48,402 nucleotides of DNA, taken from positions 1-48,402 of the forward strand of contig NCGX01000024.1 of the NCBI GenBank assembly GCA_002256995.1, read 5' to 3'. Positions within the stretch are counted from its first letter, which is position 1. Every line of letters begins with the position of its first letter. A program made the position numbers and the translations under genes. The stretch is from Hydrogenophilales bacterium 16-64-40. GTDB taxonomy: Bacteria; Pseudomonadota; Gammaproteobacteria; Burkholderiales; Thiobacillaceae. Below, one piece after another: positions 19,236 to 39,391 of the stretch. The notes beneath the pieces are model-generated. The model saw nothing but the letters and a program-made list of their open reading frames with translations, did no database searches and was not told where the DNA came from.

Positions 19236-19237
19236 GC

Positions 19238-19552
19238 TTATTGCGCAGTGACGCCGATTTCGGCCGGCAGCCTGGCGTAGACGAGCGCCAGCCCGGCGTC
19301 GGCGATGACTTTCAGCACCTGGTCTGCCAGCGCTGCATCGACGAAGAACTCCACCACCATCGGCAGCTCGCCCGCCAGCTCGAAGAATCCGGCGTCGTGT
19401 CGGCCATGGCGCCCAAAGCCCGCAACGGCACGGAACGCCGAGCCCCCGCCGACGCCAAGCCCCTGCGCAGCATCGAGCAGCCATTCATACGTCAGCTTGC
19501 CGTGATGGCGGCTGGCTTCGGACACAAACACCTGCAGGCAGACCACGTTCAT
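19238..19552 (-). CDS. DUF190 protein
   Basis: A 104-residue cytoplasmic protein, MNVVCLQVFVSEASRHHGKLT followed by AFRAVAGFGRHG and PMVVEFFVD. This is the PII-like DUF190 family, which very often sits beside crcB and may regulate fluoride or other ion export. Function is not established. The ATG at 19552 overlaps the crcB stop (ATGA), and the stop is almost fused to the exporter start, so the three are one transcription unit. Confidence 0.88.
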   Translation of the reverse strand: MNVVCLQVFVSEASRHHGKLTYEWLLDAAQGLGVGGGSAFRAVAGFGRHGRHDAGFFELAGELPMVVEFFVDAALADQVLKVIADAGLALVYARLPAEIGVTAQ

Positions 19553-25626: not shown

Positions 25627-28600
25627 TTATGACGCTTCGCCCTCCCCCAAAGGCGCACCGGCCGCTTCACAGCATCCCGCGTATGCCTGATCCGCGCTAA
25701 TGTCCTCCCGCTTTGCATCCATGAGGTAGGCTAGCCAGGCATTGGATATTTTCTCCTGAACACTGTTTTGTCCCTGGCGCGCCTGCAGGTTCGCGAAGTC
25801 GAGCTCGAACAGGGGTTGATGCTGGTTGAAGCAGGAAAAGACAAACTTGGAGGGCTCGCCCGTCGTGCTGTCCACATGCCGGCACAGGCACTGGGCACAC
25901 ACCTCCTTCATCATGCATTGCATCGGACTGTTCACGGCTGCGATCGCATTGAAGCCGGGTTTCAAATAAGGTTTCAACTCGGCACGCAAGCGCCTGCGAA
26001 AGGTCTCCATCGATTCGGGATGATCCGACAGGATGAACTGGTCGGTCTGGCGCACCCAGTCGGAAAAGGGCGCTTCCATCTCGGCGCAGGACTGCAGGAA
26101 CTCGTCGAGTCCGTGCACGAAACAGGCATCCTGCTGCCGCCGCAATGTCAGGGCCGGTCCTTCGTCCAGCACCCAGATCGCCCGGTCCGTCAGAATCTCG
26201 ATGACGCGCTGCACGGCACGCGCCCGCTCCACATTGCGGAAGTGGCCGATGAACACGATGCGGTTGCCAGCGGCCCGCCACATCGCCGCGCCGTCCACGG
26301 TGCTGGTCACGGCGGAGTGCCCGCCCGCCACCGTCACGGTCGCGTTTTCCGGCACCGGCAGGCCGGTTCCGGTCGGCCCCATCAGGATCACGCGCGTGCC
26401 GGGCTTGAGCGACGCGGCGATCCGGCTCGACACGCCCACGCTGTTGATCAGCAACTGCACCTCGCCGCGCGCCTTGTCCACGTGCACGCCATCGATGGCC
26501 ATGCCCTCCATCGCCAGCATCTGTCCCGCCACGTGTTCCGCGTGCCGCTCGAAATTCTGCAGCCGGTATACCTGCCCCGGCAGCCAGTGCCGGGTAGCCT
26601 GCGGCGCACGCACGGTGAGGCTAGTGAGATGCGGCGCCAGACGCTCGACCGCCACCACTTCGGGACACAGGGCGACGTCGAGCGACGCCGCGAAGGCATC
26701 GAATATGCGTTGATCGGTTGCGGACGCCGGTAGTGAATCGCGCCCCAACAGCAGCGCGGTGATGTCGCGCACCGCGTGCTTGCTCGACGCCATCGCCTTC
26801 ACCACGCTGCCGTGGTACCAGGGATGGTTGTCGCCGACGAAGGACACCTTGAGGTCACCCGCACCGTAGGAAGTGAAGAAGCCTGGCTGTTCGCCCTTGC
26901 AATGCCCAGCCGAGGGAACCCGAACCATTTCCCCGGCATCGTCGATGCGATAGGCGGCGAAATACTTGCCGTCCATCTCGAACGTGCCCGGATGCTCGCG
27001 CTCGTACACGGTGTTGGGGATGCTGCCGGCGGCCACCAGCACCGCGCGCGCCGGCAGCGCGACGGCCTCGCCGCTTTCCGTGTGTACGCAGCGCAGCTGC
27101 TGCACGTGGCCGTGTTCGTCGAGGACCGCCTCGGTCGGCTCCAGCGCTTCCGCGTAGTAGATGCCCTCCTCCAGCGCCTTGATGATTTCTTCGTGGTTGC
27201 GCAGGTAGGCCGGTGACTCGGCCATGGCGCGGCGGTAGACGACGGTGACGCCGCCCCAGGCGCGGATCAGCGGCGTGAAATCGGGCAATTCGCCGGCTGC
27301 GCGCGCGCGTTCGCGCTCGGCGCGCACCGCCCGGCCGTGCGCGAGGAATTCATCCAGCACGCCCTGTTCGTAGGCGTCGAACAGGCCGGCGCGGGTTTCG
27401 CCGACCGCCTCCCAGCGCGCCAGGACCTTCTCCACCTGGCGGATATAGTAGGCCTGCACCTCGGTCGCAGTGTCGATCGAGGTGAGTCCGCCGCCGATCA
27501 CCACCGCGGGAAGGCGCACCTGCAGGTTGGCGAGGCTGTCGCGCTTGGCCGCGCCGGTGAGCTGCAGCGCCATCAGGAAATCGCTCGCCTGGCGCATGCC
27601 GCGCGCCATGTTGTTGCGCACCGGCAGAACGGTGGGCCGGCCCGCGCCGGTCGCCAGCGTCACGTGATCGAAGCCGAGCGCCGGCACGTCGTCCAGGGTG
27701 ATCGTGCCGCCGAGGCGGATGCCGCCGTAGACGCGGAAGGCGGGCTGGCGCTCCAGCACCAGCCGGATCAGCGTCAGGAAATTCTTGTCCCAGCGCACCG
27801 TGATGCCGTATTCCGCGACCCCGCCAAAACCCGAATTGGTGCGCGCGTCGAGCGGCTGGTAGAGGTCTTTGACATTCTCCACCGGTAGCGTCGGCCGGCC
27901 GCTGGCGTCGAAGAGTTCCGACGGCAACGGCTCGATCTTGAGGCCGTCGACGATCACCACGCCGAAGCCTTCCTGCAGCAGGTGGTGCGCGAGATTGAAG
28001 CCGGCCGGCCCCGCGCCGACGCACAGGGTATTGCGGCCGTTGTACGGCAGGCGATAGGGCCGCGCACGGTTGAGCGGGTTCCACTGCGTCAGCGTGAAAT
28101 AGAGCTCGAATCCCCAGCGCCATTCCAGAACGTCGGTCAGGATGCGCGTCTCGATCTCGGGAATGTTCACCGGGTCCTGCTTCTGGTAGATGCAGCTTTT
28201 CATGCAATCGTTGCAGATGCGGTGGCCGGTGGCGGGCAGCAGCGGGTTGTCCAGCATGATCATGGCCAGCGCGCCCAGCGTGTAGCCGTCGCGCTTCAGC
28301 ACGTGGGCTTCCGAGATGCGCTCCTCCAGCGGGCAGCCGGACAGCGGAACCTCCAGCGGATTGCTGCGGAAGCCATCGCCCTCCTTGGCGGGGAATCCGT
28401 GCGAGCAGACATCGCCCGAATGGTCGTGGCAGTACACGCAGTAATCCACCTGATCCATGGCGTGGCGCAGGTCCGGGCGGGTGTCGGTGAGATCGAAGCC
28501 GTCCCGCCGGCGCGGGGCGGCAGCGCCTTCCACGCGGCCTGCATCCTCGCCCGGGACCGGAACGACCGGCACCAGCTTGAAGTAATCGGTGGCCTGCGGC

Positions 28601-29148
28601 AGGGCGAGGCTGACCCAGCCCGACGTCGCCGCCCGTCCGGCATCGCTGTGGCAGGCGGCGTGCAGCCACGCCTCAAGCAGTGCCAACTGCCCCGCGTTGC
28701 CAGCTTCCGATGCGTCGGCCCAGAAGCGGGCGACGCTCCATTCGCGGTCGGCCTCCGGCCACGACGGGATCAACGGGTCGAGCTCGGCAAAATCCCGCGC
28801 CGGCTGCGTGCGCTGCTTGCGGATGCGGCGCTTGACGAACTCGCGCTTGAAGGCATGAACGACCGCGTCGCGTTCCTGCGCCGCGCGCAGGCCATCGCGC
28901 GCGGGTCCGACGCCGAAGGCCGCCACCAGGAAATCCTCCAGTTCGCGCGCCACGGCGATCAGCAGGCCCGATTCCTCGGGGCCGACCCACGCGCCGCCGT
29001 TGCGGTAGTCGCGGTAGCGCGCCTGGAGTGCGCCGTCGCGCCCGGCAAGCCACGCGTCGAAGCGTGCGTCCAGCAGCGGAAGCTGCGAGGCCCGATACAC
29101 ATCCTTGTATTCAAATCCATCAAGATTCAGCTGCAGGGTCGACGCCAT
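25627..29148 (-). CDS. Fused NfnL/NfnS-like flavoprotein (GltD-like plus PyrK/FNR-like)
   Basis: A very large soluble flavoprotein of 1173 residues. Residues 1-270 have no clear family except a Cys-rich patch near 232-245 (VYCHDHSGDVC). From about 270 it becomes GltD/NfnL-like: iron-sulfur ligands Cys312, Cys315 and Cys319 in RICNDCMKSCIYQKQDPVN, an FAD motif CVGAGPAGFNLAHHL near 374, and an NAD(P) motif VIGGGLTSIDTATEV near 549. From about 835 it is like NfnS/PyrK: an FNR-type FAD/NAD(P) module (LPGQVYRLQNF, GPTGTGLPVPE) and a [2Fe-2S] motif with Cys1078, 1084, 1087 and a later Cys (CMMKEVCAQCLC, FVFSCFNQH). NfnLS bifurcates electrons between NADPH, NAD and ferredoxin; here both subunits appear in one chain. 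The ATG at 29148 has AGGA. A GntR-type operator lies upstream. Bifurcation itself is inference. Confidence 0.8.
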   Translation of the reverse strand: MASTLQLNLDGFEYKDVYRASQLPLLDARFDAWLAGRDGALQARYRDYRNGGAWVGPEESGLLIAVARELEDFLVAAFGVGPARDGLRAAQERDAVVHAFKREFVKRRIRKQRTQPARDFAELDPLIPSWPEADREWSVARFWADASEAGNAGQLALLEAWLHAACHSDAGRAATSGWVSLALPQATDYFKLVPVVPVPGEDAGRVEGAAAPRRRDGFDLTDTRPDLRHAMDQVDYCVYCHDHSGDVCSHGFPAKEGDGFRSNPLEVPLSGCPLEERISEAHVLKRDGYTLGALAMIMLDNPLLPATGHRICNDCMKSCIYQKQDPVNIPEIETRILTDVLEWRWGFELYFTLTQWNPLNRARPYRLPYNGRNTLCVGAGPAGFNLAHHLLQEGFGVVIVDGLKIEPLPSELFDASGRPTLPVENVKDLYQPLDARTNSGFGGVAEYGITVRWDKNFLTLIRLVLERQPAFRVYGGIRLGGTITLDDVPALGFDHVTLATGAGRPTVLPVRNNMARGMRQASDFLMALQLTGAAKRDSLANLQVRLPAVVIGGGLTSIDTATEVQAYYIRQVEKVLARWEAVGETRAGLFDAYEQGVLDEFLAHGRAVRAERERARAAGELPDFTPLIRAWGGVTVVYRRAMAESPAYLRNHEEIIKALEEGIYYAEALEPTEAVLDEHGHVQQLRCVHTESGEAVALPARAVLVAAGSIPNTVYEREHPGTFEMDGKYFAAYRIDDAGEMVRVPSAGHCKGEQPGFFTSYGAGDLKVSFVGDNHPWYHGSVVKAMASSKHAVRDITALLLGRDSLPASATDQRIFDAFAASLDVALCPEVVAVERLAPHLTSLTVRAPQATRHWLPGQVYRLQNFERHAEHVAGQMLAMEGMAIDGVHVDKARGEVQLLINSVGVSSRIAASLKPGTRVILMGPTGTGLPVPENATVTVAGGHSAVTSTVDGAAMWRAAGNRIVFIGHFRNVERARAVQRVIEILTDRAIWVLDEGPALTLRRQQDACFVHGLDEFLQSCAEMEAPFSDWVRQTDQFILSDHPESMETFRRRLRAELKPYLKPGFNAIAAVNSPMQCMMKEVCAQCLCRHVDSTTGEPSKFVFSCFNQHQPLFELDFANLQARQGQNSVQEKISNAWLAYLMDAKREDISADQAYAGCCEAAGAPLGEGEAS

Positions 29149-29170
29149 GGCTTGTCCTTTCCGCATTGGT

Positions 29171-29185
29171 ATTACATGTCATAAC
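29171..29185. promoter_or_regulatory. Putative GntR operator upstream of the Nfn-like gene
   Basis: ATTACATGTCATAAC, centred on the palindrome ACATGT, starts 23 bases upstream of the ATG at 29148. Its reverse complement matches 14 of 15 bases of the site at 36771-36785 upstream of the gntR gene. The shared, rare sequence is the reason to call it an operator. Confidence 0.65.
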
Positions 29186-29202
29186 AAGTTGAGTTGAGCG
29201 AT

Positions 29203-29220
29203 AGGCCGGCGTGCCGGCCT
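29203..29220 (-). terminator. Hairpin after the ABC ATPase gene
   Basis: AGGCCGGC (29203-29210) and GCCGGCCT (29213-29220) form a perfect GC-rich palindrome five bases past the stop of the ATPase gene. There is no T run, so it may be a weak terminator or an RNA-stability element separating the importer operon from the Nfn-like gene. Confidence 0.5.
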
Positions 29221-29225
29221 GTCGT

Positions 29226-30101
29226 TCAGATGAGTTCCGCTACGCCCTTCGGTCCGACCTCGACATCGAAGCCAGCCAGCCCGCTGTCCTTCAACTCACC
29301 GCCCATCGCCTTGAGACTTTCCTCGGTAATCAGGTCACGCAACTGCTGCTTGATCCGCAGGTATTCGGGACACGATGCCATGTCGGGCGTGCGCGGACGC
29401 GGCAGCAAAATGGGGATCTCAGCCTTGATCCGTCCCGGCCGCGCCGTCATCACATAGACCCGGTCCGACAGGAAGATGCTCTCGTCGATGTCGTGCGTGA
29501 TGAAGAGCACCGAGATGCGGAAGCGCTGCCACATGTTGGTGAGGATCTGCTGCATCACCACCCGGGTCTGCGCGTCGAGCGCACCGAAGGGCTCGTCCAT
29601 CAGCAGCACCTGCGGGCTGGTGGCCAGTGCGCGGACGATGCCGACGCGCTGCTTCATGCCGCCTGAAAGCTGATCCGGATAGTGGTTCTCGAAGGCGAGC
29701 AGACCGGCCAAGCCGAGCAGCGTGCGGGCCGCCTCTTCACGGTGGTTGGCGTCCATCCCCTTCTGTTTGAGACCGAACTCCACGTTCTTGCGAACGGAGA
29801 GCCAGGGAAACAGCGAGTACTGCTGGAACACCATGCCGCGGTCGGCACTGGGTTTGTCCGTCGCCTTGCCGTCCATGGTCACCGTGCCCTCGCTCGGCTT
29901 GACGAATCCGGCCACCACGTTGAGCAGGGTCGACTTGCCGCAGCCCGAGGGGCCGATAATAGAGACGAATTCGCCGGGCTTCACTTCCATCGAGACGTCG
30001 CTCACCGCCTCCACCGCGGCCGCCTTGCTGCCGAAGCGGACGCGCAGGTGGTCGACCAGGATGTGGCCGGTTGCATTGGGTTTGTCGTCGGCTTGCGTCA
30101 T
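29226..30101 (-). CDS. ABC transporter ATP-binding protein (nitrate/sulfonate/taurine type)
   Basis: The ATPase of an importer, 291 residues. Walker A GPSGCGKST, Q-loop QQYSLFPW, signature LSGGMKQR, Walker B VLLMDEPFGALD and the H-loop THD are all intact. It belongs to the SsuB/TauB/NrtD group that energises uptake of oxyanions and sulfonates. A C-terminal extension of about 50 residues follows the core. The ATG at 30101 overlaps the permease stop by one base (TAATG). A longer open frame upstream is only the permease read in another frame. Confidence 0.95.
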   Translation of the reverse strand: MTQADDKPNATGHILVDHLRVRFGSKAAAVEAVSDVSMEVKPGEFVSIIGPSGCGKSTLLNVVAGFVKPSEGTVTMDGKATDKPSADRGMVFQQYSLFPWLSVRKNVEFGLKQKGMDANHREEAARTLLGLAGLLAFENHYPDQLSGGMKQRVGIVRALATSPQVLLMDEPFGALDAQTRVVMQQILTNMWQRFRISVLFITHDIDESIFLSDRVYVMTARPGRIKAEIPILLPRPRTPDMASCPEYLRIKQQLRDLITEESLKAMGGELKDSGLAGFDVEVGPKGVAELI

Positions 30102-31048
30102 TATTTCTGTCCTCCATGAGTGGGGCCTGCCATCCAGGGCATCAGCATGTTGCCCAGAATCCGGATGGCGCCGCTGCACAACAGCCCGAGCACGCCGATC
30201 ACGATCATGCCGATGGCGATGTCGGCATATTCGATGAGGGAATACGCCTCCCAGGTGAAATACCCGATGCCGAACTGGCCCGAGATCATCTCGGCGGCAA
30301 TCAGCGACACCCAGGCCACCCCCATGCCGATGGCGAGCCCGGTAAAGATGTGCGGCAAGGATGCCGGCAGCACGACCTGGCGCAGCAGGCCGTACTCGCT
30401 CGTGCCCAGGCATCGCGCAGCACGCAGCAGCACCGGATCGACGCTGTTCACGCCATGGATGGTATTGAGCAGGATGGGAAAGAACGAACCCAGGAAGGTG
30501 ATGAATACGATGCTGGTTTCGTTGGTGGGCCACAGCATGATGGCCATCGGCACCCAGGCGATCGCCGGCACCGGCCGCAGGGTCTCGAACAGCGGAAACA
30601 GCAGGGCCCTTGCGCCGCGGTATTGCCCGATCAGCAGTCCCAGCGCCACGCCCAGCACGGTGGCGATGCTGAAGCCGAGCAGGATCCGCCGCAGGCTGAC
30701 ATACATGTTGTTGTAGAACTTGTCGCTTTGCGCCAGCCGGGCCGCGTTGTCCCAGACCTCACCGGGACTGGGAATGTTGGTAAAGCGGATATAGAAATCC
30801 AGCTTGTACTTGGTGGCGAAGTACCAGAAGGCCACGAACAAGCCCAGCGACAGCATCGTCATCAGCAATTTGGGAAGTGCGCTCCGCAACCAGGCTGCGA
30901 CGCGCCGTAGCGGCGTCTCGGCCTGCTGCGCCGCCGAGGAAACGCCCGACGGCGTGACCTCGGGCTTCGGCGCAAGCGCCAGACTGGGCCCTTGCGCTAC
31001 TTCGGCAGCCTGGGGGTCAACGCGGTTCAGACTGGTTGCGGTTCGCAT
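30101..31048 (-). CDS. ABC transporter permease (nitrate/sulfonate/taurine type)
   Basis: A 315-residue inner-membrane permease with a long, cytoplasmic N-terminus (about 60 residues) and about six helices, beginning LLMTMLSLGLFVAFWYFATKY. The EAA loop that docks to the ATPase is in the second half (ARCLGTSEYGLLRQVVLPAS). It is of the SsuC/TauC/NrtB class. It starts 3 bp after the binding-protein gene and is fused by overlap with the ATPase gene. Confidence 0.94.
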   Translation of the reverse strand: MRTATSLNRVDPQAAEVAQGPSLALAPKPEVTPSGVSSAAQQAETPLRRVAAWLRSALPKLLMTMLSLGLFVAFWYFATKYKLDFYIRFTNIPSPGEVWDNAARLAQSDKFYNNMYVSLRRILLGFSIATVLGVALGLLIGQYRGARALLFPLFETLRPVPAIAWVPMAIMLWPTNETSIVFITFLGSFFPILLNTIHGVNSVDPVLLRAARCLGTSEYGLLRQVVLPASLPHIFTGLAIGMGVAWVSLIAAEMISGQFGIGYFTWEAYSLIEYADIAIGMIVIGVLGLLCSGAIRILGNMLMPWMAGPTHGGQK

Positions 31049-31051
31049 GAT

Positions 31052-32512
31052 TTATCCCCCGACTTTCGCGACTGCCAGCACTTCCGTGTAGGAGGCGATC
31101 CGGCCGCCGCTCTTGACAGCCCAGGCCTGGGCGTCTTTCTTCAACAGGAAGGGCACGATCTCAAGCTTTTTCGGATTCTTGGCATTGAGGGCGTAGAACG
31201 CCTTGTCGGCAAACAGCTTGATGCCGGTGGTCTTGTCGAACACGAAGGCCACGCCGATCTTCTTGCCTTCCGTCAGCGCCTTCTTCACCCCGGCCAGGGT
31301 GCAGCCGGCAGAGCTGTAGGCCGTGATGGCGCCGCCTTCGACCCATACCTCGCCGCCCTCGCGCGGGCTTTTGATCGGCTTCTTGCACAGCGGGTCAGTG
31401 CCGCTGATTTCATAGCCGGCATAGCTCGCCTTCTGCTTGTCGTAGTCGAGCCCCTTCTCCTTGAAAGCCTGTTTGATATAGGTTTCGTTGGCCCAGGCAT
31501 CGGCGTTGAAGGCCTTCACCCGGCCCATGCGGCCCAACACGCCATGGTCGTATTTGACCGTCTCGATCCATTTCGGCTTGATGCTCGGATCGAGCGTATG
31601 CACGCCGCTGGGGCCGAGGAACATGTAGGCGACTTCCTTCTCGATCTTGGTCCACTCCTCGATCCTGGTCGCAGCCAACGCCGGATTCTTGCGCACCCAG
31701 TCGTTCGCATCGAGCAGCGCCTTCAGATAGGCGACCACGAACTCCGGATACTTGTCGGCGAAGTCCTTGCGCACCACGATGCCGTGGAAGGTCGGCACCT
31801 TGGTCTCCACGCCGTCGAAGATCTTGCGCGCGAAACCGCGGTGGGGAAGCAGTTCGGCGAAGGGCACGAAGTCGGCGTGACCGTCGAGCTTGCGCTCCTG
31901 CAGGTTGGTGGTCCCGACCTCGGGACTCTGGCTGGCCAGATCCCAGAAATTCTCATTCCAGCCGCGGTCCTCCATCGCCTTCAGCAGCATGCCGTGGGCG
32001 GCGGAGCCGAACGGCACCGACACCTTCTTGCCCTTGAGGTCGGCCAGTTCGTAGTAGGGCGAATCCTTGTGAACCACCATGCCGTTGCCGGCGCCATCCT
32101 TGTTGTAGGCGATCAGCGCGATCAGCTCGCTCTTGGTTTCGGACCCGGCCTGGAAGGTGGCGCCATTCACCAGCAGCGGATAGTCGCCCATCATGCCGAT
32201 CTGCAGCTTGTTGGCCACCATGCCGTTGGTGACGGGCGGACCCGAGGTGAAATTCTGCCAATCGAACTTGAAGTCGATGCCCTTGTACTTGGGCGTCTTC
32301 TTCAGTTCGGCCAGGTACTTGTCCATCAGACCGAGCTTCTCGATCACGATGCCGCCGGTCACGGTGTTGGTGGTCGTGTTCTGCGTGCCGATGCCGACGG
32401 TCACCGTTTCAGCATGCGCGGCGGCTCCGGTCAAAACGCCGATGAATGCCAGTGCGGCCCCCATCTTTCGGGTTGTTGTCATTCGGGTGGGGAAACTGCG
32501 CGTTCTTTTCAT
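31052..32512 (-). CDS. ABC importer substrate-binding protein with NosL-like C-terminal domain
   Basis: A periplasmic protein of 486 residues, far longer than SsuA/TauA/NrtA relatives (about 320-400). The signal peptide ends near AAAHAETVTVG. Residues about 25-365 are a binding-protein domain of the NrtA/SsuA class (GMMGDYPLLVNG, VSVPFGSAAHGMLLKAM, HADFVPFAELL). From about residue 372 the chain becomes NosL-like: LCKKPIKSP, GVAFVFDKTTGIKLFADKAFYAL, then EIVPFLLKKDAQAWAVKSGG and RIASYTEVL, which tracks the end of NosL (EIVPF, DAQAF, GGRI). The metal-binding CxM motif of NosL is not kept. GGAAGG precedes the ATG at 32512; upstream ATGs would destroy the signal peptide. Confidence 0.85.
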   Translation of the reverse strand: MKRTRSFPTRMTTTRKMGAALAFIGVLTGAAAHAETVTVGIGTQNTTTNTVTGGIVIEKLGLMDKYLAELKKTPKYKGIDFKFDWQNFTSGPPVTNGMVANKLQIGMMGDYPLLVNGATFQAGSETKSELIALIAYNKDGAGNGMVVHKDSPYYELADLKGKKVSVPFGSAAHGMLLKAMEDRGWNENFWDLASQSPEVGTTNLQERKLDGHADFVPFAELLPHRGFARKIFDGVETKVPTFHGIVVRKDFADKYPEFVVAYLKALLDANDWVRKNPALAATRIEEWTKIEKEVAYMFLGPSGVHTLDPSIKPKWIETVKYDHGVLGRMGRVKAFNADAWANETYIKQAFKEKGLDYDKQKASYAGYEISGTDPLCKKPIKSPREGGEVWVEGGAITAYSSAGCTLAGVKKALTEGKKIGVAFVFDKTTGIKLFADKAFYALNAKNPKKLEIVPFLLKKDAQAWAVKSGGRIASYTEVLAVAKVGG

Positions 32513-32694
32513 GTCGTGCCTTCCTTCCTGTTGAATTGATTGAGAGCTCATTGCCACGTGTTTTTCAAAACCTAAATTCAGCAATCTCCATGCCATCCGA
32601 ACAAGCCTGTTTTTATGTGCATTTCCAACGATTCGAATGCCGTGTCCAGGTCAGCGCAGTGCATCCCTGCAGGCGCACGCACCAAGCGCGGGCG
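32513..32694. other. Gap between binding-protein and ferredoxin genes
   Basis: About 180 bases with lower GC than its surroundings. I see no gene and no copy of the operator-like sequence found at 29171 and 36771. It may hold a second promoter or processing site for the importer genes, but nothing specific is visible. Confidence 0.4.
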
Positions 32695-33030
32695 TCACGC
32701 GGTTTCAGCCATTTCCAGATACTTGAACTTGTCCTGCGTATCGGCCCATTCATCCGCATCCGGCAGCGGCTCTGGCTTGTCCTTGATCAAAGGCCATGCC
32801 CTCGTCAATTCGGCATTGATGGCCACGTAACGCGCATATTCCTCGGGGAGTTTGGATTCATCGAAGATCGCCCCGGCGGGACACTCGTCCACGCACAGCG
32901 AGCAGTCGATGCACTCCTCCGGATCGATCACCATGAAATTCGGACCCTCATGGAATGCATCCACCGGGCACACCGGGACACAGTCTCCGTATTTGCAGTT
33001 GATGCAGGGTTCGGTCACCACATAGGTCAT
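32695..33030 (-). CDS. FdI-type 7Fe ferredoxin (FdxA-like)
   Basis: A 111-residue ferredoxin with the layout of Azotobacter Fd[22 protein letters not shown] then [20 protein letters not shown]. Cys9, Cys17 and Cys50 correspond to the [3Fe-4S] ligands; Cys21, 40, 43 and 46 to the [4Fe-4S] ligands. The extra free Cys of FdI is Ala25 here. The C-terminal tail ([20 protein letters not shown]) is also typical. It lies 10 bp after the HEAT-repeat gene and is a likely electron carrier between the Nfn-like flavoprotein and the AprB-like protein. Confidence 0.93.
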
Positions 33031-33040
33031 GTCGTGCTCC

Positions 33041-33991
33041 TCATTTCGAGAGTTGGGTCAGGGCCAGGCGCGCCAGCTTGCGCACGTCCGGATCGCTGTC
33101 GTCGAGCGCTTTCTCAAGTGCGGGAATCGCCGCCACCTCCCCCACTTCGCCCAGCGCGACAGCCGCTTCCTTGCGCAGGTTGCTCATCTCGTGTCCCAGC
33201 GCTTCGATGAGTGCCGGCAAGGCCGATTTCGCCTTGAGCCGGCCCAGGCTGCGCGCCGCCTTGAGACGGACCTGCCAGTAGGGGTCCGCCATCGCGGCAA
33301 TCAGGTCGTCGGTCGCATCGGTGGCGAGCAGTTTGCCGAGCGTGGCGGCTGCTTCCTCGCGCACCTGCCACGACGCGTCCATCAGCGCCCGCTTCATGGC
33401 CGGGACCACCGCCGCGGGATCGGTGGCAAAGCCGAGCGCACCGACCGCGATACGCCGGGCTTCCACCTCGGCATCGCTGCCGGCGATGCGTGCGATGTCC
33501 GGCAGCGCAGCCGGGTTCTTCAGATACCCGAGTACGCCGAGCGCGGTACAGCGGACGCCGACATCACTCGAGCCTAGCGCGGCCAGGGCCGGTGTGAAGG
33601 CTTCCGGGCGACGCAGTTCGCGCAGAGCACGAAACAGGGCGGCCTGCATGAAGGCTTGCGATGCGGCGGGCAGCGCGGCCAGCAGTCCGTCCCCCATCGC
33701 CGCATCTTTCAGCTCGGACAGCGAGACGGCGGCGGCTTCGCGCACTTCCGCGCTGTCGTCATCCAGCACGCCGATCAGCCCCTCGACCACCTCGTGGGTC
33801 TCGTAGCCTTCGAGCAGGCGAGCGGCCTCGGCGCGCACCTTGGCATCGGCGTCCTTCAGCGCATCGAGCAGGTACTGGTCGACGTCGTCCTCGTCGCTGT
33901 CCAGAAGGTCCATGACCGCAATGCGGCGTACTTCAGGGTCGGTGCTCGCCAGTCGGCTGTGAATGCTGGCGAGTTGGGTTGCAGGCATCAT
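33041..33991 (-). CDS. HEAT-repeat (PBS lyase-type) scaffold protein
   Basis: A 316-residue all-helical protein built almost wholly of about nine HEAT repeats of the PBS-lyase type, spaced about 31 residues. Recurring pieces are [71 protein letters not shown] and [14 protein letters not shown]. No catalytic site is present; such proteins act as assembly or docking platforms. GAGGAG supports the ATG at 33991. Sitting between the AprB-like and FdI-like genes, it may hold the redox partners together. Confidence 0.93.
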
Positions 33992-34001
33992 TCGGTTCTC
34001 C

Positions 34002-34235
34002 TCAACGCAACAGGTAGGGGATGTCGACACGGATCGCCTGGGTCGGGCAATCCTTCTCGCACGGCAGGCAGTACCAGCACTCGTCGTACTTCATGAACGC
34101 CTTCTTCTTCAACAGATCGATGGCGAGCAGATCCAGCGGGCAGGATTCGACGCAGACCGTACAGCCCTTGTCGGCGATGCAGGCGTCTTCGTTCACGGTC
34201 ACGGGCACGGATACCCGGTTCAGGGTCATGGGCAT
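34002..34235 (-). CDS. AprB-like two-cluster ferredoxin
   Basis: A 77-residue protein with two [4Fe-4S] motifs: Cys19, 25, 28, 32 and Cys53, 56, 59, 63. The second motif reads ECWYCLPCEKDCPTQAIRV, closely like AprB (CWECYxCvKxCPxxAI), including the Trp next to the first Cys that tunes cluster potential in APS reductase. True AprB has about 150 residues, with a C-terminal tail wrapping around AprA; that tail is missing here. It lies 11 bp after the AprA-like gene, giving the AprAB pairing in reversed order relative to aprBA. I read it as the electron-transfer subunit of the flavoprotein. Confidence 0.85.
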   Translation of the reverse strand: MPMTLNRVSVPVTVNEDACIADKGCTVCVESCPLDLLAIDLLKKKAFMKYDECWYCLPCEKDCPTQAIRVDIPYLLR

Positions 34236-34246
34236 GAGAATTCTCC

Positions 34247-35977
34247 TTAGGCGGTGGCGGCCTGCTTGACGACGCGCAGGCGGTTGTAGGCATCCTTCTC
34301 TTCATCGTCGAGTTCCACGATGTAGGGCTCGATGGGGCGCTTGAAGCAGGTCATTTCGCCCGCGTCGTTTTTCTTCAGCTGCGCGTGGCAGAACCAGTCC
34401 GCATCGTTCTTTTCCGGATGCTCGACGCGGTAGTGGTACAGGCCCCAGCGCGACTCGGTGCGGTAGAGGGAAGCGTGGGCCGCCATCTCCGCGCAGTCGA
34501 GGATGAAATGCACTTCCATCGCGCGCATCAATTCGTGCGGATTCGTTGCAGACATGGAATCCAGGTCGGCACGGATTTCCGCGAAGCGATCGAGGCCGAT
34601 CTCCATCTTCTTGGTCACCTTGGGCGGCTGCAGATAGTCGTTCACAAAGCGGCGCAGCTTGTATTCGACCTGGGCGGGCGGCAGGCCGTCCGGATTCGCC
34701 AGCGGGGCCAGCACGCGCTTGCGCTCCGCCTCCACCTGCGCGGCATCGACCGCCGGCAGTTCATGCGACATGGCGTACTCGGCTGCGCTCTGGCCGGCGA
34801 ATTGTCCGTACACGAAGGCGCCCAGCATGTAGTTGTGCGGGACGCAGGCGAGGTCGCCTGCCGCGTAGAGCCCCGGCACAGTGGTCGCCGCATGCTCGTC
34901 CACCCACACGCCGGAGGCCGAGTGGCCGCTGCACAGGCCGATCTCCGAAATGTGCATCTCCACCATGCCCAGGCGGTAGTCGAGGTTCCGGCCTTCGTGG
35001 AACCGGCCGCGGCTGGGGCGCTCGTTGCTGTGCAGGATGTGCTCGATGGTGCCGATCGTCTCTTCCGCCAGATGGTCCATCTTGAGGAAAACCGGGCCGT
35101 TGCCGCCTTCGAGCTCCTTGTAGAACTCCATCATCATCTGACCGCTCCAGTAGTCGCACTCGATGAAGCGCTCGCCCTTGGAGTTGGCGGTGTAACCGCC
35201 GAAAGGACCCGTGACGTAGGCGCACGACGGCCCGTTGTAGTCCTTGATCAGCGGGTTGATCTGGTAGCACTCGATGCCCGAGAGCTCGGCGCCGGCGTGG
35301 TAGGCCAGCGCATAGCCGTCGCCGGCATTGGTCGGGTTCTCGTAGGTGCCGAACAGATAACCGGAGGACGGCAGGCCGAGCCGGCCGGCGGCGCCGGTGC
35401 ACAGGATCACCGACTTGGCGCGGATCACGCCGAAGCCGCCCTCGCGGGTGTCGAGCACCATGGCGCCGGCGATTGCGCCGCTGTCATCCAGCAGCAGCCG
35501 GGTCGCCATGTAGCGATTGGTGATCTCGACGCGCGCCTTCTTCAGCTGGCGGTAGAGCACCTTTTTCATGTGATGCCCTTCCGGCATCGGCAACACGTAG
35601 GTGCCGATGTGGTGAACCTTCTTCACCGCGTAGTCGCCGGTCTCGTCCTTCTCGAACTTGACCCCCCAGCGGTCGAGCTGGTTGATCATGTTGAAGCTCT
35701 CCTGCGCGTAGGCCATCACCGTCTTCTGGTTGACGATGCCGTCGTTGGCGACGGTGATTTCCTTGACGTACTGCTCGGGCGTGGCATGCCCCGGAATCAC
35801 CGCATTGTTGAGGCCGTCCATGCCCATCGAGATGGCGCCGCTGCGCTTCACGTTGGCCTTCTCCAGCAGCATCACCTTCAGCGCCGGGTTTTTTTCCTTG
35901 GCCTTGACCGCGGCCATCGGGCCCGCCGTGCCGCCGCCGATCACCAGCACATCCACTTCTGCAATCATGTCGCTCAT
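34247..35977 (-). CDS. AprA-like flavoprotein of the fumarate reductase/APS reductase family
   Basis: A 576-residue FAD enzyme. The FAD motif is VLVIGGGTAGPMAAVKAK, followed by VKRSGAISMGMDGLNN, which parallels the ERSGAVAQGLSAIN segment of AprA. SEIGLCSGHSASGVWV matches the SEPYLVGSHSGCCGIWV region of APS reductase that holds an active-site His, then VPGLYAAGDLACVPH. The end WGLYHYRVEHPEKNDADWF is the AprA C-terminal pattern. True AprA is about 620-665 residues, and several substrate-loop segments are shorter here. It is therefore a paralog and its substrate may not be APS. AGGAG precedes the ATG at 35977. It lies 9 bp after gntR. Confidence 0.87.
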   Translation of the reverse strand: MSDMIAEVDVLVIGGGTAGPMAAVKAKEKNPALKVMLLEKANVKRSGAISMGMDGLNNAVIPGHATPEQYVKEITVANDGIVNQKTVMAYAQESFNMINQLDRWGVKFEKDETGDYAVKKVHHIGTYVLPMPEGHHMKKVLYRQLKKARVEITNRYMATRLLLDDSGAIAGAMVLDTREGGFGVIRAKSVILCTGAAGRLGLPSSGYLFGTYENPTNAGDGYALAYHAGAELSGIECYQINPLIKDYNGPSCAYVTGPFGGYTANSKGERFIECDYWSGQMMMEFYKELEGGNGPVFLKMDHLAEETIGTIEHILHSNERPSRGRFHEGRNLDYRLGMVEMHISEIGLCSGHSASGVWVDEHAATTVPGLYAAGDLACVPHNYMLGAFVYGQFAGQSAAEYAMSHELPAVDAAQVEAERKRVLAPLANPDGLPPAQVEYKLRRFVNDYLQPPKVTKKMEIGLDRFAEIRADLDSMSATNPHELMRAMEVHFILDCAEMAAHASLYRTESRWGLYHYRVEHPEKNDADWFCHAQLKKNDAGEMTCFKRPIEPYIVELDDEEKDAYNRLRVVKQAATA

Positions 35978-35986
35978 AAAAATCTC

Positions 35987-36748
35987 CTAGACGTGTGAAC
36001 GTTCGATGCGCATCCGGTACTGGAACGCATCACCGCGGTAGTACAGGTATTCGAAATCGATCGGCCGGCCCTCTGCGGTCATGGTGAGCCGCTCGATGCG
36101 CAGCACCGGCGCGCCCTCCTCCACCTGCAGCTGGCGCGCCAGATACTCGTCAGCCAGCATCGACTCGATCTGCAATTCGGCGCCGCCCAGTGCGTAGCCG
36201 TAGTCGTTTTCCAGGATCAGGAACACGTCGCGGTGCGCCAGGTCTTCCTTGGCCAGGCGTTCGCCGATGGCCTTGGAGACATAGGTGACGTCGAACGAGA
36301 TCGGCGCGCGGTTGAGGTAGCGCACCCGACGCAACTCCACGACTTCTTCGCTCGGGCCAACCCCCAGCTTGGCACCCACCGCGGCCCCGGCCGCCAGGCC
36401 CTTGAGGCTCACCACGCGCGAGAATGTCTCGTAGCCCATGCTGGACATCGCTTCGCCGAAGCCCTGCAACTCGGCCACGTTCTGGAACGCCTTGGGCTTG
36501 GAGACGTAGGTGCCCTTGCCGTGAATCTTGAAAATGAGGCCTTCCTTCTGCAGATCGCCCAGGGCTTGCCGCACCGTGATGCGCGACACGCCAAAGGTGC
36601 TCATCAGTTCGCTTTCGGACGGCATCTGCTGATGCGCCTGGTAGCTGCCGTCCAGAATGCTGTCGCGCAGAATTTCCTTGATCTGCGTATACAGCGGGAC
36701 CGGTGACACCTGCAGTAGAGCAGGCGGTTTCTTCCGGGGCTTGTCCAT
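35987..36748 (-). CDS. GntR-family regulator with UTRA ligand domain
   Basis: A 253-residue regulator. The winged helix at about residues 20-90 contains PLYTQIKEILRDSI, SESELMSTFGVSRITVRQALGDL and IHGKGTYVSKP, the HutC-subfamily hallmark. The rest is a UTRA ligand pocket with EVVELRRVRYLN, ISFDVTYVS and IDFEYLYYRGDAFQYRM. HutC-type members usually repress the genes beside them until a small molecule binds. The ATG at 36748 (MDKPRKKPP) is preferred to the open upstream frame. It is the first gene of the AprA-like operon, and an operator-like site lies 23 bases upstream. Confidence 0.93.
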   Translation of the reverse strand: MDKPRKKPPALLQVSPVPLYTQIKEILRDSILDGSYQAHQQMPSESELMSTFGVSRITVRQALGDLQKEGLIFKIHGKGTYVSKPKAFQNVAELQGFGEAMSSMGYETFSRVVSLKGLAAGAAVGAKLGVGPSEEVVELRRVRYLNRAPISFDVTYVSKAIGERLAKEDLAHRDVFLILENDYGYALGGAELQIESMLADEYLARQLQVEEGAPVLRIERLTMTAEGRPIDFEYLYYRGDAFQYRMRIERSHV

Positions 36749-36763
36749 TTCGATGCGCGCTCC

Positions 36764-36785
36764 ATAACTGGTTATGACGTGTAAT
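36764..36785. promoter_or_regulatory. Putative autoregulatory GntR operator
   Basis: GTTATGACGTGTAAT (36771-36785) is the near-identical mate of the 29171-29185 site in opposite orientation. It is overlapped by a second small inverted repeat, ATAAC-TG-GTTAT (36764-36775). Both lie 16-37 bases before the gntR ATG, where a repressor would act. Confidence 0.65.
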
Positions 36786-36842
36786 GACACAGCAACACAC
36801 GTGCCAACCCCGCAAATAGGCCAGCAGAAACTATCGAAAGGC

Positions 36843-37472
36843 TTATGGATATTGGCCTGCAGCCAATTTGAGTGGACGAGAAAACGCCCACGGTTGAGCG
36901 ACGCGCGCAGCACTGGCTTGGTGCGCGCTGCCCTGAAGTTGTTTTAGATTGGTGCTTGTCGAAGGCGAGCGCACGCCTCTGCGAGGCGTCGTGATGCACT
37001 CAATGAACTTGAATAATCCGGCGCTCGAGGCGCCGGAAAAAAGCCTCGTATTCCGGTCAGGTTCGGGGTTGGCGCGCTCGCCGTCCGCAGTTTCTTCCTT
37101 CTTCCAGAACGGCGCCTGCGTCTTCAGATAATCCATGATGAATTCGCAGGCGGCGAAGGCTTCGCCGCGATGCTGGCCCGCCACCGCGACCAGCACGATG
37201 GGGTCGCCCGGCAGCAGGCGGCCGACGCGGTGGATCACGGTGACGTCGAGCAGGGTCCAGCGCGCGCAGGCTTCGTCGACCAGTTTGGCGAGCGCCTTCT
37301 CGGTCATGCCGGGGTAGTGCTCCAGCGTCATCGCCGCGACCCCGCTGCCTGCGTTCATGTCGCGCGCGAGGCCGACGAAGCTGGCGATGGCGCCGATGTC
37401 GGTGCGGCCCCGGCTCATCGCCGCAACTTCAACGCCGAGGTCGAAGGCTTCGTTCTGGACCCGGATCCTCAT
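36843..37472 (-). CDS. moaE: Molybdopterin synthase large subunit, with aberrant C-terminus
   Basis: MoaE joins MoaD to insert two sulfurs into precursor Z. Residues 1-140 are a normal MoaE: RTDIGAIASFVGLARD, LEHYPGMTEKAL, IHRVGRLLPGDPIVLVAV, HRGEAFAACEFIMDYLKTQ and APFWKKEE, with the two catalytic Lys in YLKT and FWKKE. The usual ending (ERWVxAR) is replaced, after ADGER, by about 65 residues of low protein character. The DNA there holds three stem-loops. The frame continues to a stop at 36843, giving 209 residues against about 150 normally. The core looks functional. The start is 2 bp after the moaD stop. Confidence 0.88.
   Translation of the reverse strand: MRIRVQNEAFDLGVEVAAMSRGRTDIGAIASFVGLARDMNAGSGVAAMTLEHYPGMTEKALAKLVDEACARWTLLDVTVIHRVGRLLPGDPIVLVAVAGQHRGEAFAACEFIMDYLKTQAPFWKKEETADGERANPEPDRNTRLFSGASSAGLFKFIECITTPRRGVRSPSTSTNLKQLQGSAHQASAARVAQPWAFSRPLKLAAGQYP
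36903..37036. repeat. Three stem-loops in the moaE 3' region
   Basis: Perfect inverted repeats: GCGCGCA (36903-36909) with TGCGCGC (36922-36928); ACGCCTC (36973-36979) with GAGGCGT (36983-36989); CCGGCGC (37018-37024) with GCGCCGG (37030-37036), followed by AAAAAA. Three in 134 bp suggests structured non-coding DNA rather than coding constraint. None has a proper T run on its transcribed strand. Confidence 0.65.
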
Positions 37473-37474
37473 GC

Positions 37475-37726
37475 TCAGCCTCCGGTCACCGGCGGGAAGA
37501 TCGCGACTTCGGCGTGGTCCGGCAGGGCCGCGTCGAGCGCGACGATGTCCTGGTTGACCGCCATCCGGAACGCCCGCCCTGCAGCCAGTTCCTCCGCCCA
37601 CACGCCGCCGCGCGCCTGCAGTTCGGCAAGCAGATCGGCGGCCGTGATACCGGCAAAATCGAGGGTTTCCTCGGCCACGCCGAAGCGCTCGCGCAGGCGG
37701 GCGAAGTACAGCACGCGCAGTTTCAT
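37475..37726 (-). CDS. moaD: Molybdopterin synthase sulfur carrier
   Basis: An 83-residue ubiquitin-like protein ending in IFPPVTGG; the terminal Gly is thiocarboxylated and supplies sulfur to molybdopterin. MKLRVLYFARLRERFGVAEE is the typical start. The ATG at 37726 overlaps the moeA stop (ATGA), so it is co-translated. A longer frame upstream is moeA read in another frame. Confidence 0.94.
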   Translation of the reverse strand: MKLRVLYFARLRERFGVAEETLDFAGITAADLLAELQARGGVWAEELAAGRAFRMAVNQDIVALDAALPDHAEVAIFPPVTGG

Positions 37727-38916
37727 TTGAGCAGTTCCGAGAAGGGGATGAAGCGCACCCAGTCGTCTGGCTCGATGGTCTGGCTGATTTCGAGATCGAC
37801 CAGCCCGTCGGCCCAGGCGCACGAGGTGAGCACGCCCGAGCTCTGGTTGGGAAACAGGCCCAGCTTGCCGTTGGGCTGCAGGCGCGCACGCAGGAATTCG
37901 CGCCGCGCGCCCGGTTTGGTCCAGGCGAAATCGGCCTGCACGGCGAACGCGCGGTACAGCACGTCGGCCACGCCCATGCGCTTCAGCAGGAAGGGCCGGA
38001 CGAACAGGCAGAAGGTGACGAAGGCCGACACCGGGTTGCCGGGCAGGCCGATGAAGTCGGCCTCACCCACGCGGCCGTAGACCAGCGGCTTGCCGGGCTT
38101 CATCGCGACCTTCCACATCTCGACGCGGCCAAGCTTTTCGACCGCCGCTTTCACGTAGTCAGCCTCGCCCACCGACACGCCACCGCTGGTGACGACGACG
38201 TCGGCCAGGCTGGCGGCCTGCGCCAGCGCGGCCTCGGTCGCCTCCAGCGTGTCGGGCACGATGCCGAGGTCGATCAATTCGCAGCCCAGACCGTTCACCA
38301 GCCCGGTCAGCGTGTAGCGGTTGGAGTTGTAGATTTGTCCTGCCTGCAAAGGCGCACCCGGCGTCACCAGTTCGTCGCCGGTGAAGAAGCACGCCACCTT
38401 CAGCTTGTTGAACACGGGCAATTCGGCCAGCCCGACCGAAGCGGCAAGCCCCATTTCAGCCGCGCCGATACGGGTGCCCGCAACGAGGATTTGCGCGCCG
38501 GCTTCGATGTCTTCGCCTGCACGACGGATATTTTCGCCCGGCTCTGGCAGTTTGTTGATGACGACGGATTCGCCCTCGACCATGCAGTATTCCTGCATCA
38601 GCACGGCATCGGCGCCCGGCGGCACCGGTGCGCCGGTGAAAATGCGCGCGGCGGTGCCGGGCACGAGCGGCGTGCCGACTGCGCCGGCGAGGATGCGCTG
38701 CGACACCGGGAGTCTGACACCCGGCACCACCACGTCGGCGGCGCGAACGGCGTAGCCGTCCATCGCGCTGTTGTCGAGCGGCGGCACGGTGATGGCGGAA
38801 GTCTGTGGCGCGGCGAGCACGCGCCCGAGCGCGTCCACCACGGACACGGTCGTGGTTCCGGTGACCCCGTGCGCACGTTCGAGCAGGGCATCAAGCAGTT
38901 GGTCGGCTGTAAGCAT
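37723..38916 (-). CDS. moeA: Molybdopterin molybdenumtransferase
   Basis: A 397-residue enzyme that inserts molybdate into adenylated molybdopterin. PPLDNSAMDGYAVRA, GTAARIFTGAPVPPGADAVLMQE, SVGEADYVKAAVEKLG, GKPLVYG and GLPGNPVSAFVTF are the standard motifs, and the three domains are complete. The ATG at 38916 (MLTADQLLDALLERA) fits the family start; an in-frame ATG at 38952 would add 12 residues. Its 5' end overlaps mobB by about 26 bp, consistent with one operon. Confidence 0.95.
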   Translation of the reverse strand: MLTADQLLDALLERAHGVTGTTTVSVVDALGRVLAAPQTSAITVPPLDNSAMDGYAVRAADVVVPGVRLPVSQRILAGAVGTPLVPGTAARIFTGAPVPPGADAVLMQEYCMVEGESVVINKLPEPGENIRRAGEDIEAGAQILVAGTRIGAAEMGLAASVGLAELPVFNKLKVACFFTGDELVTPGAPLQAGQIYNSNRYTLTGLVNGLGCELIDLGIVPDTLEATEAALAQAASLADVVVTSGGVSVGEADYVKAAVEKLGRVEMWKVAMKPGKPLVYGRVGEADFIGLPGNPVSAFVTFCLFVRPFLLKRMGVADVLYRAFAVQADFAWTKPGARREFLRARLQPNGKLGLFPNQSSGVLTSCAWADGLVDLEISQTIEPDDWVRFIPFSELLK

Positions 38917-39391
38917 GGTCAATGATGAAATCGGTGAGTTGGGAAATGGCATCGAGGTCGATGCGGGGGAATGTGTCGGGCGCTTCCACGTCGGACGCCA
39001 CTACCAGAATAGTCGGGTCATCCGGAAACAGCCAGGACTTGCCGGTCTCGGCGCGGTGCACTTCCAGCTTGGGGATGGCGCAGCGCTTGTAGCCTTCGAC
39101 CAGCACCAGATCGCATGGCGGCAGCTGCGCCAGCAGGTCGTCCAGCCGCGGCGGCATGTCGCGGTGCTCGGTCAGCACCGCGGTGCGGTGGTCGGACGCC
39201 AGCAGCACCGCAGCCGCGCCCGCCTCTCGCGCGCGCCAGCTGTCCTTGCCGGGGCGGTCGATGTCGAAGTCGTGGTGGGTGTGCTTGATCACCGCCACCT
39301 TGAGGCCGCGCGCCGCCAGCTGCGGCAGCACGCGCTCGATCAGCGTCGTCTTGCCGCTGCCGCTGTAGCCTGCGATGCCGAATATTTTCAT
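38891..39391 (-). CDS. mobB: Molybdopterin-guanine dinucleotide biosynthesis adapter
   Basis: A 166-residue GTP-binding protein with P-loop GYSGSGKTTLIERVLP, then VIKHTHHDFDIDRPGKDSWR and DLVLVEGYK, all diagnostic of MobB. It binds GTP and aids delivery to MobA in making the guanine dinucleotide form of the cofactor. It is the first gene of mobB-moeA-moaD-moaE, and a ModE-box-like site lies upstream, shared with moaA. No mobA, moaB or moaC is seen in this window. Confidence 0.94.
   Translation of the reverse strand: MKIFGIAGYSGSGKTTLIERVLPQLAARGLKVAVIKHTHHDFDIDRPGKDSWRAREAGAAAVLLASDHRTAVLTEHRDMPPRLDDLLAQLPPCDLVLVEGYKRCAIPKLEVHRAETGKSWLFPDDPTILVVASDVEAPDTFPRIDLDAISQLTDFIIDHAYSRPTA

Follow-up and report, generated by a model that had tools for sequence, protein, structure and literature searches.

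A widely shared gene cluster in a Hydrogenophilales genome, built on an AprAB-type flavoenzyme with a probably changed substrate and most likely serving sulfur scavenging

The DNA considered here, called the window throughout, is a stretch of 48,402 nucleotides from Hydrogenophilales bacterium 16-64-40 (Thiobacillaceae; GenBank assembly GCA_002256995.1, contig NCGX01000024.1, positions 1 to 48,402), and our subject is a cluster of nine minus-strand genes at 25627..36748 that runs from a gene for a GntR-type regulator (gntR) to a gene for a fused Nfn-like flavoprotein (nfn). Open reading frame (ORF) calls over the window confirm nine consecutive frames, and Pfam, NCBIfam and PDB matches bear out, gene by gene, the domains named in an initial annotation of the sequence. 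The cluster is real and found in many genomes; most likely it serves sulfur scavenging, and its enzyme is of the AprAB type (AprAB being the dissimilatory adenosine 5′-phosphosulfate, or APS, reductase) with a substrate that has probably changed. The genes and the one subdivided product, from gntR to nfn, are as follows.

35987..36748, minus strand: GntR/UTRA regulator (Pfam UTRA 1.8e-34, GntR 1.1e-21)
34247..35977, minus strand: AprA-like flavin adenine dinucleotide (FAD) subunit, NCBIfam PRK08275, proposed catalytic subunit (NF006131, 1090.6 bits, cut-off 587)
34002..34235, minus strand: AprB-like two-[4Fe-4S] subunit, 77 amino acids (PDB AprB chains 3gyx_B 7.1e-8, 1jnr_B 2.8e-6)
33041..33991, minus strand: HEAT-repeat protein, proposed to bind the AprA-like subunit (HEAT_2 1.2e-47)
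32695..33030, minus strand: FdxA-type ferredoxin (NF045490, 146.9 bits, cut-off 135)
31052..32596, minus strand: periplasmic binding protein, NMT1-type; start uncertain, mature part 31055-32410
31055..31399, minus strand: NosL-like domain, C-terminal in the binding protein (hhalign probability 97.5, E 7.4e-12, against 12 NosL rows)
30101..31048, minus strand: ATP-binding cassette (ABC) permease (BPD_transp_1 2.7e-22)
29226..30101, minus strand: ABC ATPase (ABC_tran 6.5e-34)
25627..29148, minus strand: fused Nfn-like flavoprotein, NfnL plus NfnS type (PDB 5jca_L and 5jca_S matches)

The close packing first described from gntR to the ATPase gene is present: the gaps between successive genes measure 9, 11, 10 and 10 bp as far as fdxA, 98 bp from fdxA to the binding-protein gene (longest start), 3 bp from there to the permease gene, and a 1-bp overlap of permease and ATPase genes if the latter starts at the ATG at 30101. 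The nfn start was taken at 29148, an earlier ATG lying at 29166, and with that choice nfn follows the ATPase gene after 77 bp. The AprA-like protein consists of FAD_binding_2 and Succ_DH_flav_C domains, and the nfn product matches the alpha and beta subunits of NfnI (5jca_L, 4.1e-12; 5jca_S, 1.8e-4) in separate parts of one chain.

The same genes are grouped in many other genomes. A scan of named genomes gave at least 531 AprA-like relatives among the 595 pattern matches listed, and the best 80 loci were kept; 53 of these have at least 9 kb on both sides and form the full-flank set, from which the 27 shorter loci were excluded. Gene content was scored by tblastn instead of by calling the longest ORFs, which failed in GC-rich DNA. 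The AprA-like, AprB-like, HEAT, binding-protein, permease and ATPase genes (the core six) lie together in 51 of the 53 full-flank loci, and gntR accompanies all six in 50; the survey of co-occurrence proposed at the outset thus finds the genes together elsewhere, and the grouping of the core genes exceeds chance. FdxA is found in 14 and the Nfn-like gene in 12 full-flank loci, while a DUF971 gene, for which the window has no match, occurs in 42. Across all 80 loci the counts are 78 for AprB-like, 76 for HEAT, 74 for the permease, 71 for the ATPase, 70 for the binding protein, 69 for GntR, 49 for DUF971, 27 for FdxA and 19 for Nfn-like, where those for the ABC and GntR genes may take in unrelated genes of the flanks. 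The complete set of nine is found at 16 loci among the 80, and at 12 when only full-flank loci are counted. FdxA and the Nfn-like protein lie outside the universal core and are optional.

The cluster is an accessory trait, because it is rare both in the genus, where 9 of 56 genomes searched carry the AprA-like gene (its own included; two partial), and in a class-wide draw of 274 genomes, where 5 (own included) hold a close relative and 1 a distant one. The closest AprA-like genes among the matches listed are 97-98% identical, those of two Thiobacillus metagenome-assembled genomes included. Among plasmid records 55 have an AprA-like match, 54 of them at 59-78% identity, some partial, and the last at 28% identity with an annotation as APS reductase; the plasmid-borne matches come from proteobacteria, cyanobacteria and actinobacteria. 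Gene order varies from the Thiobacillus type to a type in Massilia, Cupriavidus and Acinetobacter in which the HEAT gene follows the ATPase gene, a gammaproteobacterial type that has Rnf and whose importer is separate, and a cyanobacterial type in which Mrp/NBP35 is present. Tsukamurella and Nonomuraea join the AprA-like and HEAT parts in a single chain of about 890 amino acids. One shared function is suggested because linkage survives this reshuffling and because of the AprA-like/HEAT fusion. The Nostoc copy (L165, 11001-23602) has genes for a HAD hydrolase, a methyltransferase, a GNAT protein and a VOC protein between the AprA-like and AprB-like genes, and genes for an amidase, metX and O-acetylhomoserine aminocarboxypropyltransferase nearby. 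Neighbours seen repeatedly in a wider set of 90 loci, in which L018 and L098 are the same plasmid, include thiC at five (L021, L039, L040, L043, L045; four of them Massilia), which plays no part in our reading, and a SCO1/SenC-like gene at six (L015, L030, L057, L058, L064, L103).

Several lines of evidence indicate that the enzyme is related to AprAB, as had been claimed. The closest solved structure to the AprA-like protein is the alpha subunit of 3′-phosphoadenosine 5′-phosphosulfate (PAPS) reductase of Methanothermococcus thermolithotrophicus (8a8o, 2.3e-64), followed by Archaeoglobus fulgidus AprA (1.4e-45). Membership in PRK08275 is clear (1090.6 bits against 587), and that name carries nothing tested on function. 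The AprA models are reached far less well, with 183.5 bits against a cut-off of 641.75 for TIGR02061 and 285.6 against 557 for PRK06854, a model for which the source genome's own AprA also falls short (437.5 bits). That separate, canonical-looking AprA is encoded elsewhere in the source genome (3.1 Mb), and the AprA-like protein shares 31-33% identity with it in two segments. Scores against models of SdhA/FrdA span 143-177 bits, the TIGR01812 score being 177.3 against a cut-off of 567.3. At the AprA motif RFKDGYGP the arginine (A. fulgidus Arg265, numbered by hand), which we take to be a contact to APS, is leucine in the window protein, and the position of A. fulgidus Trp234 is tyrosine. This arginine is present in all four AprA rows shown and is kept in 8a8o, whereas among 90 AprA-like relatives an NPLIKDYNGP-type motif is found in every one and FKDGYGP in none. 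The structural matches, the scores below cut-off and the lost arginine together point to a retained scaffold and, probably, a substrate other than APS; by sequence the enzyme is Apr-related and no APS reductase. The phylogeny suggested initially recovers AprA as a solid group (100/100) and places the AprA-like rows on one side of a weakly supported branch (78/89) with very long outgroup branches, the distant row L012 being unplaced. A structure model of the AprA-like protein was poor (predicted local distance difference test score 71.2) and was not used.

The AprB-like protein aligns with AprB and is a two-[4Fe-4S] beta subunit with the electron-relay tryptophan, at 34.6 of the 135.65 bits of TIGR02060; the motif CWxCxxC is kept in all 87 relatives read. 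Passages of PMC10322725 propose that Trp42 of the archaeal PAPS reductase takes part in electron transfer, and we infer that the tryptophan of CWxCxxC is its counterpart. The HEAT protein is recognized, at 87 bits, by the HEAT portion of PRK13800, a model of the fusion. A BLAST comparison of the window HEAT protein with the Tsukamurella fused chain gave nothing significant, and the HEAT link to that chain is made by Pfam HEAT and the PRK13800 model. A complex of AprA-like and HEAT proteins is suggested because the two are fused in two actinobacteria and stay linked despite reshuffling.

The fold of the binding protein matches SsuA and TauA best; nitrate and bicarbonate transporters fall only a little behind, at Z 24.5-25.7, where the putative SsuA 3uif is found as well. 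Curated models are not reached in this protein (102 of 163.5 bits for SsuA_fam, 76.9 of 304.25 for the taurine model). The top models are SaoP, tied with NtrB, for the permease (156.4 of 295 bits) and SaoA for the ATPase (273.4 of 360), both below cut-off; the name SAO follows NCBIfam, and a search of the open-licence literature found no paper on it. Profile comparison with hhalign identifies the C-terminal NosL-like domain, for which Pfam NosL gave no match in the binding protein, and no NosL structure stands among the VIA-align rows shown, a comparison that covered residues 1-331 only. In that profile alignment, for which 12 of 46 rows of the binding protein were printed, nothing pairs with the FFCD cysteine of NosL, part of a motif that we take to be copper-binding, and the CxLDGM motif precedes the aligned stretch.

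Other neighbours concern electron supply. FdxA is present in 32 of the 90 loci, and a ferredoxin-reducing module adjoins 27 of these 32 versus none of the other 58 (Fisher p 3e-18, kinship uncorrected). The modules are Nfn-like at 20 loci, Rnf at 6 and ferredoxin-NADP reductase at 1. Four of the five FdxA loci without a module are shorter than 16 kb, L064 showing about 2.4 kb beyond fdxA with no module in it; at the fifth (L013) an Nfn-like match on the edge of the locus scored below the limit. Because these unrelated modules share a ferredoxin-reducing output, ferredoxin is the probable electron donor, and hence the substrate is probably reduced. The initial annotation had left open whether the AprAB-like pair reduces or oxidizes an anion, and reduction is the likelier direction, since the adjoining modules can all reduce ferredoxin; the electron route that it drew through the Nfn-like protein and ferredoxins stands for ferredoxin, with the particular Nfn-like protein and FdxA being optional.

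Features that bear on regulation lie before both nfn and gntR.

29174..29189, minus strand: palindrome before nfn, ACTTGTTATGACATGT, proposed GntR operator (exact match, 16 bp)
36767..36782, minus strand: second proposed operator, the palindrome before gntR (plus-strand match, 2 mismatches)
36791..36806, minus strand: sigma-54 promoter box TGGCACGTGTGTTGCT (exact pattern match)
36852..36891, minus strand: two inverted repeats that lie upstream of the sigma-54 box and may be an activator site (read by eye)

The shared site reported before gntR and nfn is present, exactly before nfn and with 2 mismatches before gntR, and these are the only two places in the source genome within 2 mismatches of ACTTGTYATRACAWGT. 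The pattern read backward also gives one plus one matches, and the weak gntR copy is not significant alone; because the backward pattern matches equally, that copy rests on its conserved position. The consensus ACYTGTYATRACARGT occurs within 2 mismatches in 63 of 78 gntR upstreams (shuffled mean 0.15), having been derived from those same 78, and the window copy, with 3 mismatches to it, is outside the 63. Independent support for the palindrome is its recurrence before nfn, where similar sites were seen by eye in 13 of 20 printed upstreams, together with its rarity in the source genome. At a sulfide:quinone reductase-like gene (L177), TGTCATGACA occurs twice upstream, its core identical to the cluster palindrome.

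The promoters themselves are of more than one kind. A sigma-54 box within 1 mismatch is found in 31 of the 78 gntR upstreams, the window included (shuffled mean 0.2), and a second motif, ATAWR-N13-ATTCGTTC, in 18, with one upstream carrying both. The second motif has 21 sites in 12 genomes versus 3 for the backward-read pattern, and 6 of the 21 precede a cluster gntR. Others stand before genes for a sulfate binding protein (L126), a MetQ/NlpA-family protein (L128), a cystathionine beta-synthase-like protein (L129, model score under cut-off) and two amino-acid-type binding proteins (L121, L132), beside a divergent luciferase-type monooxygenase gene (L125) and a divergent TauD gene (L127), before a gene followed by a sulfatase as second gene (L131), and, by eye, before three TonB receptors (L116, L130, L136); four are unclear (L119, L124, L133, L135). 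Judged by these genes the set resembles a regulon for sulfur limitation, in Oxalobacteraceae at any rate. The source genome has six other exact sigma-54 boxes (backward pattern, 1), of which four precede nif-type genes, namely nifB by model match and, by eye, a nifV-like gene and (at two boxes) a nifH-like gene, one precedes a binding-protein gene and one a sulfide:quinone reductase-like gene. NifA control was dropped as a candidate: a NifA-type site (TGT-N10-ACA), present before the nif genes, was not found in the 250 bp upstream of the cluster. Oxygen sensing by adjoining Crp/Fnr regulators was dropped as well, the FNR-type cysteine motif appearing in none of five read (four alphaproteobacterial, one of these a 134-amino-acid fragment, and one cyanobacterial).

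Sulfur genes also adjoin some copies. TauE and YeiH (PF03601) genes end the cluster in Pseudanabaena and Leptolyngbya, two of the three cyanobacterial copies examined, the Aquabacterium and Rhizobium copies have TauE-family genes close by, and the window has one of its own about 6 kb beyond the end of nfn.

18489-19241, minus strand: TauE/SafE-family gene (Pfam, 149 bits)

As a sign of a sulfite product the TauE-family count is no more than suggestive. The Acinetobacter TauE-family gene was not counted as support, since it sits among genes fitting the FisR sulfide operon described in passages of PMC7315123; some 5 kb separate those genes from the Acinetobacter copy of the cluster (L019). The sulfur context stands beyond protein names because of the promoter motif, the TauE/YeiH genes and the SsuA/TauA-like fold of the binding protein, and on this evidence (the motif being from Oxalobacteraceae, the cyanobacterial genes two of three) the early suggestion of an imported sulfonate or other organosulfur anion holds to the extent that the anion probably contains sulfur.

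We therefore regard the chance as about even that the cluster scavenges sulfur by importing a sulfonate-like anion and freeing sulfite from it reductively. The TauA/SsuA-type binding protein and the ABC importer would take up the small anion, and the AprA-like/AprB-like enzyme with its HEAT protein would reduce it in the cell and free sulfite. Probably the N5 of the reduced flavin would attack the sulfur to form a flavin-sulfite adduct, as proposed for AprAB. FdxA would supply low-potential electrons and be reduced again by the Nfn-like protein in this cluster, by Rnf or ferredoxin-NADP reductase in others, and lineages without FdxA would draw on another ferredoxin. DUF971 or Mrp/NBP35 may assist the loading of iron-sulfur clusters, which we take to be their role, and surplus sulfite may leave through TauE or YeiH in some hosts. 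The GntR protein would govern, presumably by repression, the genes from gntR to the ATPase as well as nfn through the palindrome. A more specific version is possible and rather doubtful in its full form: a new desulfonating class, in which a ferredoxin-dependent, oxygen-independent AprAB-type flavoenzyme, plasmid-borne in three phyla, cleaves the C-S bond of imported sulfonates reductively by way of the flavin-sulfite adduct, with sulfite as product.

A number of observations weigh against a reductive sulfonate scavenger. To our knowledge there is no earlier case of a flavin driving sulfite out of an unactivated alkyl sulfonate. Neither FdxA nor a ferredoxin-reducing module accompanies 58 of the 90 loci, and low-potential electrons at these FdxA-less loci are only inferred. 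The Thiobacillus promoter is of the sigma-54 type, a sulfur oxidizer should seldom lack sulfur, and 30 of the 78 gntR upstreams have neither the sigma-54 box nor the ATAWR-N13 motif. In Nostoc, the remaining one of the three cyanobacterial copies, neither TauE nor YeiH is annotated. By tblastn, 5 of 95 loci have a TauE-family gene nearby, and four of the five are loci that supplied the queries; this count is a lower bound because the search is insensitive and at that limit misses the Pfam-confirmed gene of the window. A neighbour of SsuD, DmoA, SfnC, TauD or TauE type is seen in 20 of 90 loci, a figure that lacks a matched control and includes some distant matches (26-41% identity).

Alternative substrates within the same system deserve the most weight among the rivals. 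Cleavage of an N-S, O-S or S-S bond, as in a sulfamate, a sulfate ester or an S-sulfonate, would offer a better leaving group and might also supply nitrogen in some hosts; because APS is itself a sulfuryl group with a good leaving group, this would presumably need the least mechanistic change, the Thiobacillus-type sigma-54 promoters would suit a nitrogen source, and 7 of 95 loci have an amidase-like gene nearby, in some cases with an identity of only 28-30%. The fold of the binding protein is nevertheless closest to sulfonate binders and the core has no gene specific to such substrates, and we judge this version unlikely. A somewhat smaller likelihood attaches to an AprA-like protein that acts as fumarate reductase does, on an unsaturated or oxidized organic acid, with sulfur incidental: the flavoprotein superfamily is shared and the SdhA/FrdA models do score, but the best solved relatives are PAPS and APS reductases, the AprB-like partner carries CWxCxxC, and both the sulfur-limitation motif and the sulfur-gene neighbours speak for a sulfur role.

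The sigma-54 boxes, in 31 of 78 upstreams and before nif-type genes at four of the six other places in the genome, together with an importer family to which nitrate and bicarbonate transporters belong, their Z being little lower, would fit a nitrogen-source or nitrate/cyanate-type system. We consider that very unlikely, given the missing NifA-type site, the Oxalobacteraceae sulfur motif and the sigma-54 box before a sulfide:quinone reductase-like gene. Metal or organometal handling, suggested by SaoP and SaoA as top models, by the NosL-like domain and by the SCO1/SenC-like genes, is highly improbable: the SaoP and SaoA scores lie far below their cut-offs, the FFCD cysteine has no counterpart, and the CxLDGM motif falls outside the aligned range. 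Least probable of all, and unlikely already from scores and residues, is an APS or PAPS reductase that replaces CysH in sulfate assimilation. It would agree with the nearest solved structure, and CysH (TIGR02055) was not found in four cluster-bearing genomes (G000, G239, G026, G247, the source included), which by gene content alone leaves room for it there; CysH is above cut-off in 11 of 12 others, however, the AprA motif arginine is replaced in 90 of 90 relatives, the core has no sulfate activation genes, and an importer would be senseless for a nucleotide.

Elsewhere in the window, genes of MoaE, ThiS/MoaD and MoeA type lie directly upstream of the cluster on the same strand (about 36843-38952, minus). 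At 1055-2767 a tRNA-Ser (CGA) stands beside a DUF6538 ORF (1819-2634) and an rve integrase-core ORF (1055-1852), an arrangement as left by mobile elements.

No experiment on the cluster was found in the open-licence literature; the passages of PMC7315123, PMC5373536 and PMC8557817 contain no work on it, and PMC3826726 has no match to the cluster terms searched. The statement that no described pathway has this gene set holds for experiments and is overtaken for prediction, since a passage and a figure legend of PMC12375680 (2025) list a 'ferredoxin/APS reductase/GntR' module with a sulfonate transporter as plasmid cargo of 'Fervidacidithiobacillus caldus' and predict organosulfonate uptake and assimilation, in one sentence and that legend, with no assay. 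On its plasmid pTcM1 we find gntR, the AprA-like, AprB-like and HEAT genes, fdxA and the Nfn-like gene. Some 2-6 kb beyond these stand the ABC importer genes, among which an ISL3-type transposase gene separates that for the permease from that for the binding protein.

In soil and sea, sulfonates form a large sulfur pool, and the best-known aerobic routes for their assimilation require oxygen. If correct, reductive scavenging by this cluster could explain oxygen-free sulfur acquisition in soil, plant-associated, methanotrophic, cyanobacterial and sulfur-oxidizing bacteria, would extend the APS reductase scaffold by one reaction, and would give a role to a family labelled 'fumarate reductase/succinate dehydrogenase flavoprotein subunit' in public genomes.

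Comparison with known systems places the cluster among familiar parts in a different combination. With AprAB it shares an FAD subunit, a two-[4Fe-4S] subunit and the Trp-Cys motif of the latter, and it differs in having leucine for Arg265, tyrosine for Trp234 and, as partners, an importer, a HEAT protein and a GntR regulator. The M. thermolithotrophicus PAPS reductase, assayed with reduced viologen according to passages of PMC10322725, has an AprAB-type scaffold and a substrate different from that of AprAB, but it keeps the Apr arginine and acts on a nucleotide made in the cell, and those passages mention neither an importer nor a HEAT partner. The PRK13800 fusion of Tsukamurella and Nonomuraea, accompanied by GntR, AprB-like and importer genes, corresponds to two separate genes in the window. 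The nfn product appears by its matches to combine both subunits of NfnSL, fused in about 1170 amino acids and optional in the cluster. SsuABC and TauABC with SsuD or TauD resemble it in importer fold and sulfur-limitation role; desulfonation by SsuD and TauD needs oxygen, and where that oxygen-dependent step stands in those systems a ferredoxin-linked flavoenzyme would stand here. A C-S-cleaving enzyme of this type would be distinct from the SsuD and TauD oxygenases, from the thiamine- and pyridoxal phosphate-dependent lyases and from the glycyl-radical lyases.

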